Shown here: piece after piece, positions 79-8,056 of the stretch
Layout: the number at the start of each line of letters is the position of its first letter
How positions within the stretch are numbered: position 1 is the stretch's first letter
The notes under the pieces: generated by a model
The model's input: only the letters and a program-made list of their open reading frames with translations
Databases searched by the model: none
Told to the model about the DNA's origin: nothing
Program-made: the position numbers and the translations under genes
Origin: Pseudomonadota bacterium
GTDB taxonomy: Bacteria; Desulfobacterota; Anaeroferrophillalia; Anaeroferrophillales; Tharpellaceae
Length of the DNA: 60,347 nucleotides
NCBI GenBank assembly: GCA_011049115.1
Contig: DSCM01000113.1
Location: forward strand, 1 to 60,347
Direction: 5' to 3'

Positions 79-185
79 TTACTGACAACTCAAACCCGGA
101 CCGTTTACACAAAATGCTTTACAGGCCCCAGCAAGCCGGTGAACAGTACCAGGCCCAGACCTTTGCAGATTTTCTTAAAATCCAT
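79..185 (-). pseudogene. Possible tiny lipopeptide gene, one-base frameshift
   Basis: An ATG at 185 follows a very strong ribosome binding site (AAGGAGGAG, 8 bases upstream). As read, the frame stops after 26 codons at 105. If the GGGG run (complement of 126-129) had one more G, the frame would continue to 79. The 35-residue product would be a hydrophobic segment ending in LLGAC, which fits a lipobox, followed by a short tail with two more cysteines. It lies at the 3' end of the GAK-type cluster on the same strand. The missing-base lesion matches those in the neighbouring genes. No family is recognised. It could also be a chance reading frame, although the ribosome binding site argues for translation. 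Confidence 0.3.
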
Positions 186-350
186 TTTTTCTTCTCCTCC
201 TTAGCTTTTACACAGCTGTTGTTCGTTGATGCCAAACTCACCCTGAATCTGACACCACCTTCATTCAAGCCCGGACTTAATGTCACAGCAACATCAACAT
301 AATGTAAAAACTGAAAAAGGATTTGTTAAAGAAATCTACGCTGCCCCGGA

Positions 351-751
351 TTAATGTTTTTCAAACTCCTCGCCGCAGGAACTGTCGGAAAGTTCTTCTT
401 TTTCGCCAGCGCAGGTTACCGTCAGGCATTCGCCGGCATCATCGCCCTCAGCTGGATTTTCCGGGATTTCTTCGTCGGCCGAAAGCAACTCGCGCGCTCC
501 GACAGAAATATCAATATCCTGTTCCAGGCTTCCACAAAACCATGACAGTTCAAGAGAAAAACGGCCTTATCCTTTTTCTCCCGGGCACTGATTTCGATCT
601 CAACCGGATCGGACAGCTGCAGACTCAGAACCTGATCATCCTTTTCAATTCTGACCATCCCGGAGCGAAAAGCGGCGGCCAGATCTTCAAGTTTAGCCGC
701 GGCTTCGGCCGGGGCCATGAACTTTTTCAAACTGAGTTTCTTTTTTTCCAT
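351..751 (-). pseudogene. Amphi-Trp/XXXCH-like small GAK-system protein, frameshifted
   Basis: The start is the ATG at 751, 8 bases after AAAGGAG. The first about 65 residues read as an amphi-Trp-type domain: a basic start, a helix with many alanines, then alternating beta strands. The open frame then runs on into an unlikely Arg- and Trp-containing tail ending at 422. Adding one G in the GG at about 563-564 (plus coordinates) restores the expected ending RFSLELSW, followed by an acidic tail with cysteines that stops at 351. The reconstructed length is 133 residues. The C-terminal extension suggests the family called XXXCH in GAK loci, but I could not verify that motif. The partners are the CofD-like gene upstream and possibly the lipopeptide downstream. 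Function is unknown. Confidence 0.55.
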
Positions 752-802
752 GATCAATTCTCCTTTAATGATTTACCTGCATCAAGCTTCAATACCCATG
801 GC

Positions 803-2019
803 TCACGCCAGGGACAACAAAATGCCTGCCAGACATTCGGCATCGAGCAACGAATCGCTATCCGGGCTTATAAGTTCACCCCTGATTACGATAATGCCGC
901 GGCGGGCAAACTCGGCCTCATCGAGCTTGCCGCAATAGTTACAAGAGTGCTTATCCAGCAGGATAAAGTTCAACAAGTCACCGTCTTGAAGCTCTGGATC
1001 ATCCTTTTTCAGATAAAAAAGCAGTTTATCCACCTGATCCCTGAGCTCCAGACCCAGGGTTTCCGGGTCATATCCGGTACTGGGGATATAAACCTTGGGC
1101 GCCGGATTACGGGCTATGGCCCGGCCCAGCCCAGCCGGCAGCAGACTGGCAATCAGGCTTGAAAAAAAACTGTCCATCGGATAGCAGATTAAAGAGGCGC
1201 CGGCGATCAACTCACAAATTTTAGAGCGTACCGCAACCGTCGCCGTCACATCTTCTACGTGAGCAAGCCCCCCACCAGAAAAACCTTTTCTATGCGGCTG
1301 CCGGGACAGGGATACGCCCCGGCGGTAAACCGATGCTGCCCGACAAGAATGCGGCCGTCCGACAATGCGGCCGCCAGATGACAATTACTGCTGACCACCG
1401 GCCGGACCACGCCTCGAACTTCGGCCAGCTTTGAATAGATGTAAATTATCGGATCAAGGTGACGCCGGTTTTCAAGATAGCCGGCCGTCAGAATGAGGTT
1501 TCCGATATTGGCGCCGGCCAGATTGAAATCCGCAGGTTTTAGCTCATCGAAAAGTTGAAGATGATGGCGAATAATCTTGCGCATGGGTGAGGAAATTGCC
1601 AGGATCAACTCATGACAACCACCAACCATTGCTTTCAGTTCACCGGCCAGTTGCCTGGGACTCGCCGTTGACGGCAGGCGATAGGCAAACAACCGATAGA
1701 TTTCGGGATTGCCGCAAATACTCTGATCGGCCAAAGCCATCAAACGGTTGCGAATATCACCTATCGCCGGCATGCGGAAAGCCTCGCGTAACCCGGCGGA
1801 GCTGCCCCCGGAATCAAACGGGGTAATCAGGTGAATCGAGTTACAGGTGTACTTGACAAGTTTCTGACTGAGTTTTTTCAACGCGCTGCCGCCGCTGAAA
1901 AAAAGCAGTCTGGGTCCCAGAGCCGGAGCCGTACGCAGAAGTTCAAGGCACTCCGGATCCGGCAATTTCACCTCTCGCCGAACGGCAACCCGCCGGGTAA
2001 AAACTAAATCCGCAGACAT
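803..2019 (-). pseudogene. GAK-system CofD-like protein, split by a frameshift
   Basis: The ATG at 2019 opens a 254-codon frame whose motifs resemble the CofD/UPF0052 fold: FFSGGSALKKLS near the N-terminus, then HLITPFDSGGSSAGLR, the substrate/phosphate-binding glycine region of that superfamily. The frame ends at 1255, but the frame ending at 803 continues the protein smoothly (GLAHVEDVTATVAVRSK, later YIPSTGYDPE). Joining needs one extra G in the G6 run at 1268-1273. The reconstructed length is 405 residues. CofD proper transfers a lactyl-phosphate group to the F420 precursor; the role of GAK-type members is not established. The gene lies 9 bases after the small amphi-Trp gene in the same operon. 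The break could be a real mutation or a homopolymer sequencing error. Confidence 0.75.
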
Positions 2020-2028
2020 TGGGCTCAG

Positions 2029-2281
2029 TTACCTATCCTGATTTTGGCAATTCACCGCGTCCTGATTCCAGGACATTTTAAATTCAATCCGCCCTTCACC
2101 TTTACGAACCCGGGCCTTGACTTTAAAATCAATTTCGTCACTCGGATAAAGGAGAATCTCCTCCTCGGCCGAGGTGAGGATGAGTCGCCTTTTTCTCAAA
2201 GCCTTCAATCAGGGAGGTAAGATAAGCGATAACCGTTGCCGGCTTACCCCGAATCTCATAGCTGATCTTTTTTCCCGACAT
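2029..2281 (-). pseudogene. Amphi-Trp domain small protein, frameshifted
   Basis: An ATG at 2281 sits 7 bases after TAGGAG, just behind the stop of the HprK-like gene. The first 30 codons read MSGKKISYEIRGKP and onward, then a run of five A residues (complement of 2190-2194) throws the frame into an early TGA. Removing one A restores an ending of alternating polar and hydrophobic residues with EFKMSW near the end, stopping at 2029. The reconstructed length is 83 residues, typical for amphi-Trp proteins, which end their core with a conserved tryptophan. Function is unknown; this type of small protein accompanies GAK-system kinases. It is placed between the HprK-like kinase and the CofD-like gene. 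Confidence 0.6.
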
Positions 2282-2292
2282 CGCAGTTTCTC

Positions 2293-3357
2293 CTAAACCA
2301 GTAAGCGCAGGCAGAATTCCGTCGCCCCGACAAAATCCACGCCGCCTCGAAGTTCATACATCGGACAGACGGAAAGCCGCCGCAGATATTTCTCCAGCGC
2401 AACCGCCGCCGTACCAAGATAAAAAAGACCGGCGGCCTTCATAAACGCCGGCAGCAGGGCGCGGCGGCGGCTTTCATCCGCAGCCACGACAACCAGACCG
2501 CCACCCTGGCGCTCCCAGTTCAGAATAACCAGGGCTTCGAGCGTGGCTTTACTTTGAAAACGATCCCGACCAAAGCATTGATCGATGTAAACATCGTATT
2601 TATGCTCAACCTGCCAGAGGGCATCGGTTTCCAGCAGACCAAAGCGTTCCCGATCGGCCAGCGGCATCACCATCGCCAGATCGGGATTACCCAGGGCCGT
2701 CCCCGGATTGATCCGCGGCAGCTTCGCGATGCCATACATAAACTGCGGTTTGCCGGCTTCGCCTTCAATTAACAGTCGGTCATTGCTGATAAAATCAGTT
2801 CCCCGGCTCATCAGGTGCAACGCCAGGGTTGATTTCCCCATGCCGGAAAACCCGGCCAGGGCCAGGCCCCGGCCACCCTTGGCAACGGCGGCGGCGTGAC
2901 CGAGCAGACAACCCTGATCAAGCTTATAGGCGATAAAACGATTATTAATAAAATTAACCACCTGATTGGCATTGGCGCAACAGGAACCGGCCACCAAATT
3001 GACGTCGGATGCAAAAATAAAGACCATGCCGGTCAATCTTTTGCGCACGATGCGCCCATCATCGAGATCAAGGAACTCTTCCTTGATCTTATCTTTTCCG
3101 AAATCCGGCATTTTCATTTCAAAATGAGCGTCAATTTCTGGAGGATCCATCTCCAGAGCCGTAACCGTCAGCTGCACCTCGCCCGCGGAAACCACGAAGG
3201 TTTCAAAATAATGCCTCAGATTTTCAACCAGCTTCGCGGCATTACTGACAAGCAGCACCCTGTAGTTCTCGAACTGCAGATAAAACTGGTGGTCAAAGTG
3301 CGTCCCCCGACACAAATCATCAGTTAAAGAGCGCAGGTTTCGAGCTGCATAAATCAT
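2293..3357 (-). CDS. HprK-related kinase B (GAK system)
   Basis: This is a 354-residue protein resembling the HPr kinase/phosphorylase catalytic domain. A Walker A loop, GFSGMGKST, lies at residues 169-177, preceded by LGHAAAVAKGGRGLAL and followed by FISNDRLLI, which corresponds to the acidic metal-binding strand of HprK-type kinases. The N-terminal 150 residues are a separate domain without recognisable motifs. True HprK phosphorylates a serine of HPr in sugar regulation; no HPr or PTS gene is present here, so the substrate is unknown. The ATG overlaps the TGA of the ATP-grasp gene (ATGA), showing translational coupling. The reading frame is intact, unlike most of its neighbours. Confidence 0.8.
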   Translation of the reverse strand: MIYAARNLRSLTDDLCRGTHFDHQFYLQFENYRVLLVSNAAKLVENLRHYFETFVVSAGEVQLTVTALEMDPPEIDAHFEMKMPDFGKDKIKEEFLDLDDGRIVRKRLTGMVFIFASDVNLVAGSCCANANQVVNFINNRFIAYKLDQGCLLGHAAAVAKGGRGLALAGFSGMGKSTLALHLMSRGTDFISNDRLLIEGEAGKPQFMYGIAKLPRINPGTALGNPDLAMVMPLADRERFGLLETDALWQVEHKYDVYIDQCFGRDRFQSKATLEALVILNWERQGGGLVVVAADESRRRALLPAFMKAAGLFYLGTAAVALEKYLRRLSVCPMYELRGGVDFVGATEFCLRLLV

Positions 3358-4235
3358 CGATGTTCCTCCAGTCTACGAATCACATAGTCGGTATAAAGCG
3401 AGGCGACATCCAAGCCTCGAGCTTCCTGCAGGCCGCGAAAACCACCAAAAGCGGAAACTTCGAAAACTATCGGTCCAGCCGCCGTTTCCGCCACATCAAC
3501 GCAGGTAAAATCAAGTCCGAAAGGGGCCTGGGCCCGCCGGGCCAGCTCGATAATCGCCGGATCAGGATCAATGGCCGCATATCTGCCGCCCGAGGCGATC
3601 GTCGTATTCCAGGATGCGGCCTGCCGGCAGCGGGCGTAGGTGGTCAGATATTCTCCACCCAGAAAAACCAGGCCGAGATCGTAAGTCCCCAGATCCACCT
3701 TTTTCTGAATATAAAGAATACGGTTGACCTTTTTGTAAGCCTGCAGTTTTTCAAGCAGCCCCGAGCTGCCATCCTGCAGCACGGTCATGCCCCGGGCCTT
3801 GGTTGAATAGAGAGGTTTAAGCACGACCTCGCCATACTCCTTGATAATCTGCAAAGCCTGATCGAGATCTTCCGTTACAGAGGTCGCCGGCATCGGCACT
3901 TCGGCCTGCTGCAGGGTAACCGTGCAACTAAGCCGATCAAGAACCCCAAGAATTTTTAAAGGGTCGGAACAAAGCAACACTCCATACCGAGGTAACAGAC
4001 GCAGAATTTCGAGACGATCCAGGAGATCGGGAGAATAACGCTGACCAATCTTCTTGATAATCAGGGCATCGAATCGCCGCAGATCATGACCTTCAAACAA
4101 AAGACGACCGGAGGGCAGATCCAGCCTGACCTTATCCATTTCCACCAGCAGATGAAAACCGGTCCGGTGCGCGACGGTTTTAGCCAAAAGCTCCGAGGAC
4201 CAGCCGCCGGCCGTACCAACCACGGCAATTTTCAT
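3354..4235 (-). CDS. GAK-system ATP-grasp enzyme
   Basis: A 293-residue ATP-grasp fold protein. It opens with a Rossmann-like stretch (MKIAVVGTAGGWSSELLAK). The central domain has the nucleotide-binding strands GEVVLKPLYSTKARGM (about residues 135-150) and LYIQKKVD, as in RimK- and glutathione-synthetase-like ligases. The end carries FEVSAFGGFRGLQEA, where RimK-type enzymes have their metal-binding E-x-N (here E-x-S). ATP-grasp enzymes join an acyl phosphate to an amine or thiol; the substrate here is unknown. The frame is intact, and the gene sits between the broken PhoU-phosphotransferase gene and the HprK-like kinase, coupled to the latter by a 4-base overlap. Confidence 0.8.
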   Translation of the reverse strand: MKIAVVGTAGGWSSELLAKTVAHRTGFHLLVEMDKVRLDLPSGRLLFEGHDLRRFDALIIKKIGQRYSPDLLDRLEILRLLPRYGVLLCSDPLKILGVLDRLSCTVTLQQAEVPMPATSVTEDLDQALQIIKEYGEVVLKPLYSTKARGMTVLQDGSSGLLEKLQAYKKVNRILYIQKKVDLGTYDLGLVFLGGEYLTTYARCRQAASWNTTIASGGRYAAIDPDPAIIELARRAQAPFGLDFTCVDVAETAAGPIVFEVSAFGGFRGLQEARGLDVASLYTDYVIRRLEEHR

Positions 4236-4290
4236 AAAAGTTGACTCCGTTTCAAATCATTTACCAGCGGTCAAAAAACCAAGAGGACCA

Positions 4291-5982
4291 TCAAACGCTG
4301 TAATAAAATATATCTTTCGGCAGCACAAAGGTTTCCGGAGAGGCTTTTGACTTTCTCCAGGCATCAATCTTTTCCAGCAAAAACAATGCGCGTAACGCCA
4401 TTTCCTGGGCAAACTTATGATTCTGTTCAAACCTGGTCGAGGTATAAAACGATCTTACCAGCGCCAGTCCCAGGCGCAGGTCAAAGGTATGATCCTCCTG
4501 AGCGACGGCAAATTCACCGGCAAACCGATAAATCTCGGCCATTATCTGGTTGAGTCTGTCGCGCAACCCCTTTTCAAACACCGGTAAACGAAAATTTGAG
4601 ATCATGATAACGACGATATCAGCCACGTAATCAGCCGGCCCGGAACGATAGAGATCAATAAAATGGATACTTTGCTAAACCTCATCATAAAGAATGTTAT
4701 TTATATTGAGGTCCCCGTGACCGAAAACCGTGAACGGTGCCGCCAGAGTTTTCTCCCAGGCGCGACAGTTCTCGACCAGAATTAACGCTGAAGGCACTTC
4801 AAGACCGCTTACCACCTGCTGATCGCGAAAGATATCGGGATGCACGGCCATAATGTCTTCACTGCGCTTAAGCAGCTGCCCCATATAATCAATCCCTGCC
4901 GGAACCGTAATCAGGGATTTTTCCCAGACCCCGCGCAAGGTGGTTTCAAGTTTTTGCAGAGCCTTGACGATTAGCGACAGCGGCCGGGTGATGATAATGG
5001 ACTCCAGGGTCTGCCCGGCAATGAACTCGACCAGTATTGAACTGCAATTGCCATCTTCATGAAAACTGTAAATCCGGGGCACCAGACCGGGCATGATCAT
5101 GGTCCATTTTTCAATATTATCTCTTTCCTGAACAATTTTACTCCGGCTGCCGGATTTAAAAAGACCTTCCTGCCGCTTTTCACCCACCCCACCAGGCTGG
5201 ATCCCACTCCCGACCCGGCTGATATTACAACCCGAGCGGTTGCCCCAGAAGGAATTGACTTCCAGCTTTTCGGGGGCGATACTGATTTCAGCATGACATA
5301 AGGTCTGCTGCAGGGCTTCGAACTGGCGAATTTTAATCTTTTCTCCCAGTATCGCCAGCAGAATAGCTTCACCGATATTGAGCAGGGCATCGCCCATACG
5401 TTCCAGATACCTGAAGATAAAAAGAGTGGTCACACAGGTATCTACCTCTTTGCCGTCCCGCAGGAAAGCCATGATTTTACTGAAATTTTACGTAAACAGC
5501 TCATCAAGCTCACACTCGGACCGACAGATCAGCATGGCTTTTGCGATATCGTTTTCAGTCAGGGCCTGATCCACGAGATTCAGGCTTTTCTCAATAAATA
5601 AAGACATCGGCTGAGGGGAGAAACTCCACCAGAACTCCCGATTACTAAGGAAATCCACCTGTTTGGATATATTAATGCAGCAATCAGCGATTCTTTCCAG
5701 ATTCACACAGATTATCTGCCGCGCACGCAGATGTGCGATTTTCTCTTTTTCCTCAGATCCAAGCTGGCTCAGCGTGGTAAAACACTGATTTTCAATGGTC
5801 AACTTGAGATTATCGATATAGTCGTCCCGCTCGATTATTTTCCCGTGCAGCGCCTCGGAAAAGGATTCAATGTAAGCAAAAGTCCGGGCCAGCTGGTTGA
5901 CGCCTTCACTTAAAAGCAGCCTGAAGTTATCATCCAGAACCCGTAGACTGGACTGGTTCTTATTTCTACCGGAACTGCTCAT
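4291..5982 (-). pseudogene. PhoU-domain/phosphotransferase fusion with two in-frame stops
   Basis: One continuous frame of 563 codons starts at the ATG at 5982 (AGGCGG upstream) and is interrupted by TAA at 5488-5490 and TAG at 4675-4677. Residues 1 to about 215 form a helical PhoU-like domain: LERIADCCINIS in the first half, and YLERMGDALLNIGEAI in the second half after the first stop. The C-terminal half is an aminoglycoside-phosphotransferase-like kinase with the catalytic loop FGHGDLNINNILYD, followed 7 residues after the second stop by HFIDLYRSGPADY, where the metal-binding Asp is expected. The second stop therefore cuts between the catalytic and metal-binding loops and should abolish activity. 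Both stops are one C-to-T change from Gln codons. It is probably a decayed small-molecule kinase of the GAK cluster. Confidence 0.75.
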
Positions 5983-5998
5983 ATTTCCGCCTCAGGAC

Positions 5999-6274
5999 TC
6001 AGAAGATCTCAATTTCTTCCCGGGAAAGTTCCGCCGGGCCGCCGGCATCGGTCCAGCTTAATTTGATGGTCAACTTATTTTCCAGACCCTTTTTCTTGGC
6101 CTGAAACGAGATGCGGCATAACTCACCCATCGCCATCACAATCTTCTCATCGCCCGACAACAGGGTTATCTTTTTCTTGTCCAGGGCCTCAATCAGAGAT
6201 TCAAGATACAGTTTGATCGAATTTGTGTCCTGCAGTGAAACATGAGAGAATTTTTTCCATCCATTGCTTTCCAT
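5999..6274 (-). CDS. Amphi-Trp domain protein
   Basis: The ATG at 6274 gives a 91-residue protein starting MESNGWKKFSHVSLQD. The core is a helix (YLESLIEALDKKK) followed by alternating strands ending LENKLTIKLSW, the pattern of amphi-Trp domain proteins, then an acidic tail. A TTG at 6307 would add 11 residues but has a poorer fit to the family start. The gene lies between the PHP-like pseudogene and the PhoU-phosphotransferase pseudogene, 16 bases before the latter. The frame is intact. Function is unknown; these small proteins are known only as companions of GAK-system enzymes. Confidence 0.6.
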   Translation of the reverse strand: MESNGWKKFSHVSLQDTNSIKLYLESLIEALDKKKITLLSGDEKIVMAMGELCRISFQAKKKGLENKLTIKLSWTDAGGPAELSREEIEIF

Positions 6275-6349
6275 CCCTTTTTCCCAGTGCCATCCGTTTT
6301 CCCTCAAGGTTAAGCCTTCGCAACACAGATGAGGCGAAAACCCTGAAAC

Positions 6350-7525
6350 TTAGCCGTTCAAACGGCTTGCGTACTCTTCGATCACCTGCCGTCTACTCAT
6401 CCCGGTTTTAATCAGTTCCTTGCTAATCGCCAGATCATCCCAGGCCGGCTACACCCCGATTTCACGTTCGGCTTTTTCCCTGGAACCGGCTTCCGGGCTC
6501 TTGAGTTTCTCCCCGAAATGAGTATCGTCTCCCATAAAAGCCAGCAGCCTGCGGCCCGGTTTGCGCCCCTGATTTTTTCTTTCCAGAACTGAAATTAAAA
6601 ATTCAGTGTACTCCCGGGACTGCGGGTTCCAGATCTCATAACCATCGACATCGTAATCCGCCAGCAGAATCGGCCAGAACTGTTCCGGATGAGGAATGAC
6701 AATCCCCGCCCCCAAAGCCCGAGCCTCTTCGATAATCTCCGAAGTCCGGTAAAAGAATTTCAGCGAAAAGTGACTTTTGACAATCTCTTTCAGGGCCCGC
6801 AGAAAGATCTGAATACGCAGCACCAGGGAGACATCCAGCTCAGCGCAGAGCTCGTCAAAATAATTCCGCAGCAGCTTGTTTTTGATGCTGGCCGGAGGAA
6901 TCATGTCGCAATATTGATCAAACAGTTTTTCGAGTTTGCACGCGTGCGCGGCGATATAGGCAACCAGTTCCGACCCGGTTCAGGTTGCGCGCGCGGCTTC
7001 CTCAAGCCAGTCCGCCCGGGACCGGGTCAGGGCCTGGAGAAAACTGAAGAATTGAGATGAACGATATTTGAAGGTGTGCTCAAAGATATTTTTAAACACC
7101 CCGGCCTCTTCGACCCGGGCTGACTGAAAATGAACCAACAGCTGAACCTTACGGTTAAAACCGCTGGAATAACAATCAACCTCGACCCCTGAATAACCGT
7201 TAAATTCCATCAGAATATTATGCTGGGTCGGAATGATCAGTTCCTGTTTACGATCGGGAAACAGGAACTCCAGACGACGGGCTATCAGCTCCAAGGGAAT
7301 AAATTCCGGATGCCAGTGCACCGCCAGGACCTCCTCCTGACGTTTAAATATCTTATCCGGGGTTACTATCCGAAGCTCCTCCTCCGCAGTCAACTCACTT
7401 GAAATCACCTTGAAAAAACGTTGTTCATCCGGCGCGGAAATCTCGGGTGACAGTCCCGGCAACGGGGCCGCGACCAATCCGGCGGCTATCCTTTCTATGG
7501 TGGCCATAGCTTTTTTCCGTTTCAT
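6350..7525 (-). pseudogene. PHP-like metal-dependent hydrolase with two in-frame stops
   Basis: A single frame of 391 codons from about 7525 to 6350 is broken by TGA at 6980-6982 and TAG at 6449-6451. The N-terminal part has AVHWHPEFIPLELIARRL and IIPTQHN, and the C-terminal part has GAGIVIPHPEQFWPI and LADYDVDGYEIWN. This layout of spaced histidines resembles PHP (polymerase and histidinol phosphatase) enzymes. After the second stop the frame continues with AWDDLAISKELIKTGMSRRQ and ends at TAA, a sensible protein tail, which supports a broken single gene. The stops are one C-to-T step from CGA and CAG. The start is uncertain: ATGs at 7525 and 7507 and a TTG at 7564 are possible. It is the first gene of the GAK-type cluster. 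Confidence 0.7.
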
Positions 7526-7564: not shown

Positions 7565-8056
7565 ATTCCATCTTTGACCAGCGGTACCTTAACCTTATAA
7601 AAAAATATTATTAACGTCGCATAAAGATAAACTGCCGTCCCCAACCCGGGGCCCCGCTTTTTTTTACCTTTCATAGTGATATATAAAGCCGTCTCAGCGA
7701 ATTTTCTTTCCCAAAAATGTAACTATTCTGCTAAGCTGCAACCTCGATGAGCTTCAGTGGCCTTCCGCGACATGACGAGAGATTTCGTCGTTTCCCCCCC
7801 CCGGCGAGAGAAGCCCCATAACCTTGCGGCCGCCTGAGTGCGATAGCTGGACATCATAAACGCTGGGAAAGCAGAATGCGAACCTCGGGAGTCAAAGAAA
7901 AGCCCCTGCGAGCTCCCGAAAATGAATAGTTACCTGAAAATTTTCTTTCTGAGAGGGGAAATATCTTCTGGGGAAAACCGTTAGATTCGCCTTTCGTGGC
8001 CGGCCCCGGCCGCACCTGGCTGAATAAACGAGGGGGAAATGATAAGAGGAAAATTG
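7565..8056. other. Intergenic gap between divergent GAK cluster and exoA
   Basis: About 490 bases without a gene I can support. They must hold the promoters for the minus-strand GAK-type cluster and the plus-strand exonuclease gene, but no convincing -35/-10 pair stands out. There is a run of nine C residues near 7793-7801. Overlapping minus-strand frames at 7892-8181 have no family features and run into the exonuclease gene. Confidence 0.5.

Follow-up and report, generated by a model that had tools for sequence, protein, structure and literature searches.

The GAK gene cluster at one end of contig DSCM01000113.1 (assembly GCA_011049115.1) is very probably an accessory operon in early pseudogenisation, the outcome of real and recent decay. 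Five of its eight recognisable genes are interrupted, by four in-frame stop codons and three one-base frameshifts in total, a tally that the initial annotation of this DNA had put forward and that is present in the sequence. The locus is a degenerate member of the GAK group with no working system, and what it represents is a commonplace recent loss of genes and no novel type of system.

Composition of the cluster and its interruptions

The window, by which we mean the whole stretch of 60,347 nucleotides that was analysed, starts where contig 113 starts, in an assembly of 143 contigs and 2.64 Mb that is rated 97% complete. A GAK cluster had been placed at 79–7525; the GAK assignment holds, with the cluster proper confined to 354–7525 on the minus strand, and positions 1–124 are the end of an insertion sequence that lies outside it. 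Read from 7525 to 354, the genes encode a PHP-fold (metal-dependent phosphoesterase-like) protein, amphi-Trp protein C, a PhoU-APH fusion kinase, a GAK ATP-grasp enzyme, an HprK-related kinase B (HprK-B), amphi-Trp protein B, a GAK CofD-like protein and amphi-Trp protein A. This order matches that of relatives' loci, and all four GAK family types in NCBIfam are found: amphi-Trp (TIGR04354), HprK-related kinase B (TIGR04355), grasp_GAK (TIGR04356) and CofD_rel_GAK (TIGR04357). The locus agrees with the GAK system in families and order and differs from it in the interruption of five of eight genes, such that it does not constitute a complete working operon. An open-access literature search for the names GAK, amphi-Trp and HprK-related kinase returned no papers.

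Three genes are open. Two of these, encoding the ATP-grasp enzyme (3354–4235; 435.5 bits against a TIGR04356 cut-off of 300) and HprK-B (2293–3357; 459.5 bits against a TIGR04355 cut-off of 200), had been recognised as such in the initial annotation, and to them must be added the gene for amphi-Trp C (5999–6277; 52.3 bits to TIGR04354). All three amphi-Trp copies exceed the 31-bit cut-off of their family, two of them in frameshifted form.

The frameshifts lie in the genes for amphi-Trp A (354–750, shifted at ∼545–585), amphi-Trp B (2029–2281, shifted at ∼2180–2200 beside a run of five A residues) and the CofD-like protein (803–2019, shifted at ∼1255–1275 within a run of six G residues). For the CofD-like protein, TIGR04357 matches both halves, with the split pieces, at 324 and 150 bits, falling short of the cut-off of 340, and tblastn alignment to intact relatives continues across the change of frame. 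The two amphi-Trp frameshifts are deduced from three-frame translation and the TIGR04354 match, supplemented for amphi-Trp A, which is spread over two frames, by an intact homologue in the related genome G005. All three frameshifts coincide with or adjoin a single-base run five or six bases long. Indels in such runs are typical of slippage, and also of some sequencing errors.

The stop codons are located in two genes. The PhoU-APH gene (4291–5982), in which both domains are recognisable, carries TAA at 5488–5490 and TAG at 4675–4677, and the PHP-fold gene (6353–7525) carries TGA at 6980–6982 and TAG at 6449–6451. Alignments to intact relatives continue through all four. The first PhoU-APH stop falls in the PhoU half, and the whole kinase half is lost after it; the second follows the HGDxxxxN catalytic loop but precedes the Mg-binding Asp, removing that Asp and everything downstream in APH. 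Likewise, the first stop in the PHP-fold gene takes away about half of the protein, and with it the invariant PHPEQFW and GDDTH-type motifs.

The alignment columns occupied by the stops bear on how they arose. Each stop had been described as one C-to-T step from CAA, CAG or CGA, a description that, taken as the history of all four, does not survive comparison with relatives. The TGA column is Gly in 66 of 66 relatives, the TAG column at 6449–6451 is Gln in 66 of 66, and both PhoU-APH stops occupy variable columns. C-to-T damage as the sole cause was therefore rejected, since only one stop in four sits at a column implying a Gln ancestor. Because the TGA codon sits at an invariant Gly column, a C-to-T change is most likely not the origin of at least this one stop.

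Apart from the genes themselves, an Rfam scan of the region upstream of the cluster gave no match. A 65-base stretch at window positions 7860–7926 is 79% alike to one elsewhere (G000 C28:38669–38733). Both are intergenic, an inverted motif (TCGGGAG/CTCCCGA) is present, and the window copy has no match in Rfam.

Relatives, the PHP-fold protein and constraint

Among 15 genomes of the same family, the GAK ATP-grasp gene is found in only one other, G005, which belongs to a different genus. There the CofD-like and amphi-Trp genes are intact, HprK-B and ATP-grasp are open, and a partial PhoU-APH gene is free of stops across the site corresponding to 4675. The ATP-grasp proteins of the two genomes are 73% identical, a distance at which dS is likely saturated. 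The PHP-fold gene was not found in G005, an absence that is uninformative because the cluster there is split over short contigs. No second, compensating GAK copy was found in the source genome.

Of 80 related clusters, about four carry one or two isolated lesions and none has more than two; their genes are otherwise intact. Intact clusters occur in culturable relatives too, for example in Desulfatibacillum alkenivorans and a Nitratidesulfovibrio. The density of lesions in the GAK cluster studied here is thus beyond what chance would provide, given that homologous genes in these clusters are mostly intact. The comparison with relatives proposed in the initial annotation accordingly turned up intact homologues, that of G005 included, and the lesions seen here, stops among them, are absent from those copies, as is characteristic of pseudogenes. 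As a separate observation, a GAK cluster in an uncultured Desulfococcus (contig CAJXSB010000097.1) has a frameshifted PhoU-APH gene, and the aligned stretch of its ATP-grasp gene contains a stop; these lesions may reflect independent decay or assembly error.

Fifty loci with long flanks were treated as complete. PhoU-APH is present in all 50, as is ATP-grasp, followed by the PHP-fold protein (49), HprK-B (47) and the CofD-like protein (36). PhoU-APH and the PHP-fold protein, the latter uncatalogued, are therefore core GAK members. None of the 50 loci holds ATP-grasp and HprK-B alone. GAK clusters on Rhodobacterales plasmids (Tritonibacter and Qingshengfaniella) share ATP-grasp, HprK-B, an APH-type phosphotransferase and amphi-Trp proteins, and of the two regions viewed one also has CofD. 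They differ in carrying an annotated metallophosphoesterase and histidine phosphatase, and no PHP-type protein is named in them.

The PHP-fold protein matches no curated sequence model in Pfam or NCBIfam, and a profile search of the PDB with it returned nothing. Its assignment comes from the predicted structure of an intact relative (pLDDT 89.6), for which the best Foldseek hits are RNase AM (9etk) and a PHP phosphoesterase (3o0f and 3e0f), with E values of 2×10−5 to 5×10−5 and a probability of 1.00, at TM-scores of only 0.36–0.50. Homologues, of which L075:6458–7603 is an example, share the invariant motifs HWHPE, PHPEQFW and a GDDTH-type sequence, and these metal-ligand motifs are consistent with the fold. 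The gene at 6353–7525 can thus be provisionally assigned to the PHP family at the level of fold only.

To compare broken and open genes, we counted deviations at those sites where conservation among the other sequences reached 93% or more, with the lesions themselves excluded. The PHP-fold protein deviates at 7 of 104 such sites, the highest rank among 67 sequences, and differs in this respect from the two open enzymes taken together (Fisher P 0.010), for which the counts are 0 of 79 (ATP-grasp) and 1 of 65 (HprK-B). PhoU-APH deviates at 2 of 53 sites, and the value for the CofD-like protein (3 of 96) is unremarkable. When identity is expressed relative to that of ATP-grasp, the broken genes are low (PhoU-APH ranks 1 of 75, CofD 3 of 49 and PHP 4 of 67) and HprK-B is ordinary (19 of 72). 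PhoU-APH of G005 is also fast-changing (rank 4), and the constraint signal is only moderate evidence because G005 shares part of this effect, which is to that extent lineage-wide. Relaxed constraint of the kind expected for pseudogenes is thus apparent in the top rank of the PHP-fold protein and in the relative-identity comparison, with CofD a weaker case. This moderate evidence suggests that the excess change in broken genes fits real relaxation better than false bases. ATP-grasp and HprK-B look normally constrained.

Broken genes elsewhere and the insertion sequence

The initial annotation reported no interrupted gene in the remaining 52 kb of the window. We established a baseline with a frameshift-aware gene finder that was trained on the source genome and models gene overlaps, and it likewise detects no frameshift or read-through between 8 and 60 kb. 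The observation does not extend to the genome at large, as about eight further broken genes occur in a sample of ∼434 kb from other contigs (∼16% of the genome), several with domain matches flanking the break on both sides. Examples are PAS-histidine kinases on C10 (L127, C10:100–2506) and C16, an MFS transporter (L137, C36:40339–41597), an NMT1-type protein that is likewise on C16, a Cache sensor on C26 (L144), a DJ-1-like gene with a TAG codon on C11 (L156) and a B12-binding/radical-SAM-like gene on C4 (L150). The number of broken genes found in the genome is a minimum, because the gene finder misses most in-frame stops and, of the five broken GAK genes, picks up just two. The GAK block is the densest patch of lesions seen, and not the sole one.

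Positions 1–124, on the plus strand, correspond to the 3′ end of an element resembling the IS256/Mutator family, comprising the C terminus of a transposase and a terminal inverted repeat. The genome holds at least 10 other copies of this end (on C10, C20, C26, C32, C56, C92, C117, C132, C134 and C142), mostly at contig ends. A longer copy on another contig reads as a Mutator/IS256-type transposase C terminus, with a weak match to Pfam PF00872 (E 0.0076), and the motifs of the element resemble those of IS256. The insertion sequence end cuts the start of a small open reading frame (MDFKKICKGLGLVLFTGLLG...) at 124–185 on the minus strand, just downstream of the cluster, that has no relatives in the 80 loci. 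Some of the other broken genes adjoin copies of the end (on C10 and C26); the sampled contigs were picked partly for carrying it, and we claim no enrichment.

Origin of the lesions and meaning for the GAK system

Recent loss of an accessory pathway was the interpretation first offered for this cluster, and it is the best reading of the data, considering the patchy occurrence of the cluster, the intact copies in a related genus and the excess substitution in broken genes; decay is not confined to this block. The operon of relatives codes for an ATP-grasp ligase, two kinases (HprK-type and PhoU-APH), a phosphoesterase of the PHP fold, a CofD-like transferase and the amphi-Trp proteins. A pathway of this composition would be expected to make a small molecule or peptide and to phosphorylate and dephosphorylate it. 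We propose that this pathway lost its usefulness in the lineage, whereupon stops and slippage indels would have built up in five of the eight genes, and that the cluster acquired an IS256-like element at its downstream edge. With the PHP phosphoesterase, PhoU-APH and CofD steps putatively lost, the pathway as known elsewhere could not run. ATP-grasp and HprK-B would remain open and constrained most simply because the loss is recent and they have not yet been hit. The loss of function of each broken gene, the order of events and the chemistry of the pathway are all inferred. Published work on the pseudogenes of Salmonella Typhi and Paratyphi A (PMC2658671) and on pseudogene dynamics (PMC2916853) describes stops and frameshifts accumulating in unneeded genes. 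The lesion types here are the same as in those accounts, and the difference is that ours come from the assembly of one environmental uncultured bacterium and not from a strain series that would show fixation.

The principal competing explanation, which we consider rather unlikely, is that the cluster is truly intact and that the lesions are local sequence or assembly errors, arising from low coverage or a mixture of strains where the contig ends next to a repeat. The assembly is indeed fragmented, the contig end next to the cluster coincides with a multi-copy insertion sequence, every indel lies at a short single-base run, and some frameshifts elsewhere in the genome are also near copies of the same end. 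Nonetheless, the lesions reach 7 kb from the contig end, the middle of the cluster contains 1.9 kb of clean genes, the 52 kb beyond it is clean as well, and four of the seven are substitutions creating stops, not indels. Furthermore, a few base errors would not be expected to produce the excess of amino acid changes at conserved sites in the broken PHP-fold protein. Highly improbable, in our estimation, is a remodelling in which five genes were dropped while ATP-grasp, HprK-B and one amphi-Trp protein were kept as a working reduced module. Although the two enzymes are lesion-free and together show just one deviation among 144 conserved sites, seven lesions would miss both genes by chance with P ∼0.10, which is not significant by count alone, no relative retains only this pair, and recent loss accounts for the same data. 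Taken by itself, the claim that ATP-grasp and HprK-B (with one amphi-Trp protein) are retained as a reduced working module is doubtful in the extreme; if it were true, it would point to a core reaction of the two enzymes that is separable from the GAK pathway.

There is almost no likelihood that recoding or programmed frameshifting yields full proteins across the stops and shifts. The genome does contain tRNA-Sec (on C95), together with a peroxiredoxin gene (G000 C36:23988–24722; L136:3988–4722, minus strand) that has an AhpC/TSA domain and an in-frame TGA at the peroxidatic Cys (..DFTFV*ATEL..), so that recoding of TGA as Sec probably occurs here. This peroxiredoxin is likely a selenoprotein, and the presence of at least one such selenoprotein-like gene explains the tRNA-Sec. 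In the GAK cluster, all three stop codons are used, as noted in the initial annotation, which concluded that no single codon reassignment explains them, and none of the lesions is conserved in relatives. A TGA at an invariant Gly and a TAG at an invariant Gln mark neither a Sec nor a Pyl site, and pyrrolysyl-tRNA synthetase (PylS) was not found in the genome. Recoding by Sec or Pyl is thus rejected, the presence of tRNA-Sec notwithstanding.

If the cluster is decaying as we propose, the copy at 354–7525 should not be taken for a working GAK system, and its state suggests that GAK is dispensable in this lineage. For the family more broadly, the core status of the PHP-fold protein and PhoU-APH, along with the occurrence of other phosphatases in the Rhodobacterales plasmid clusters, suggests that the system may operate through a kinase/phosphatase cycle.
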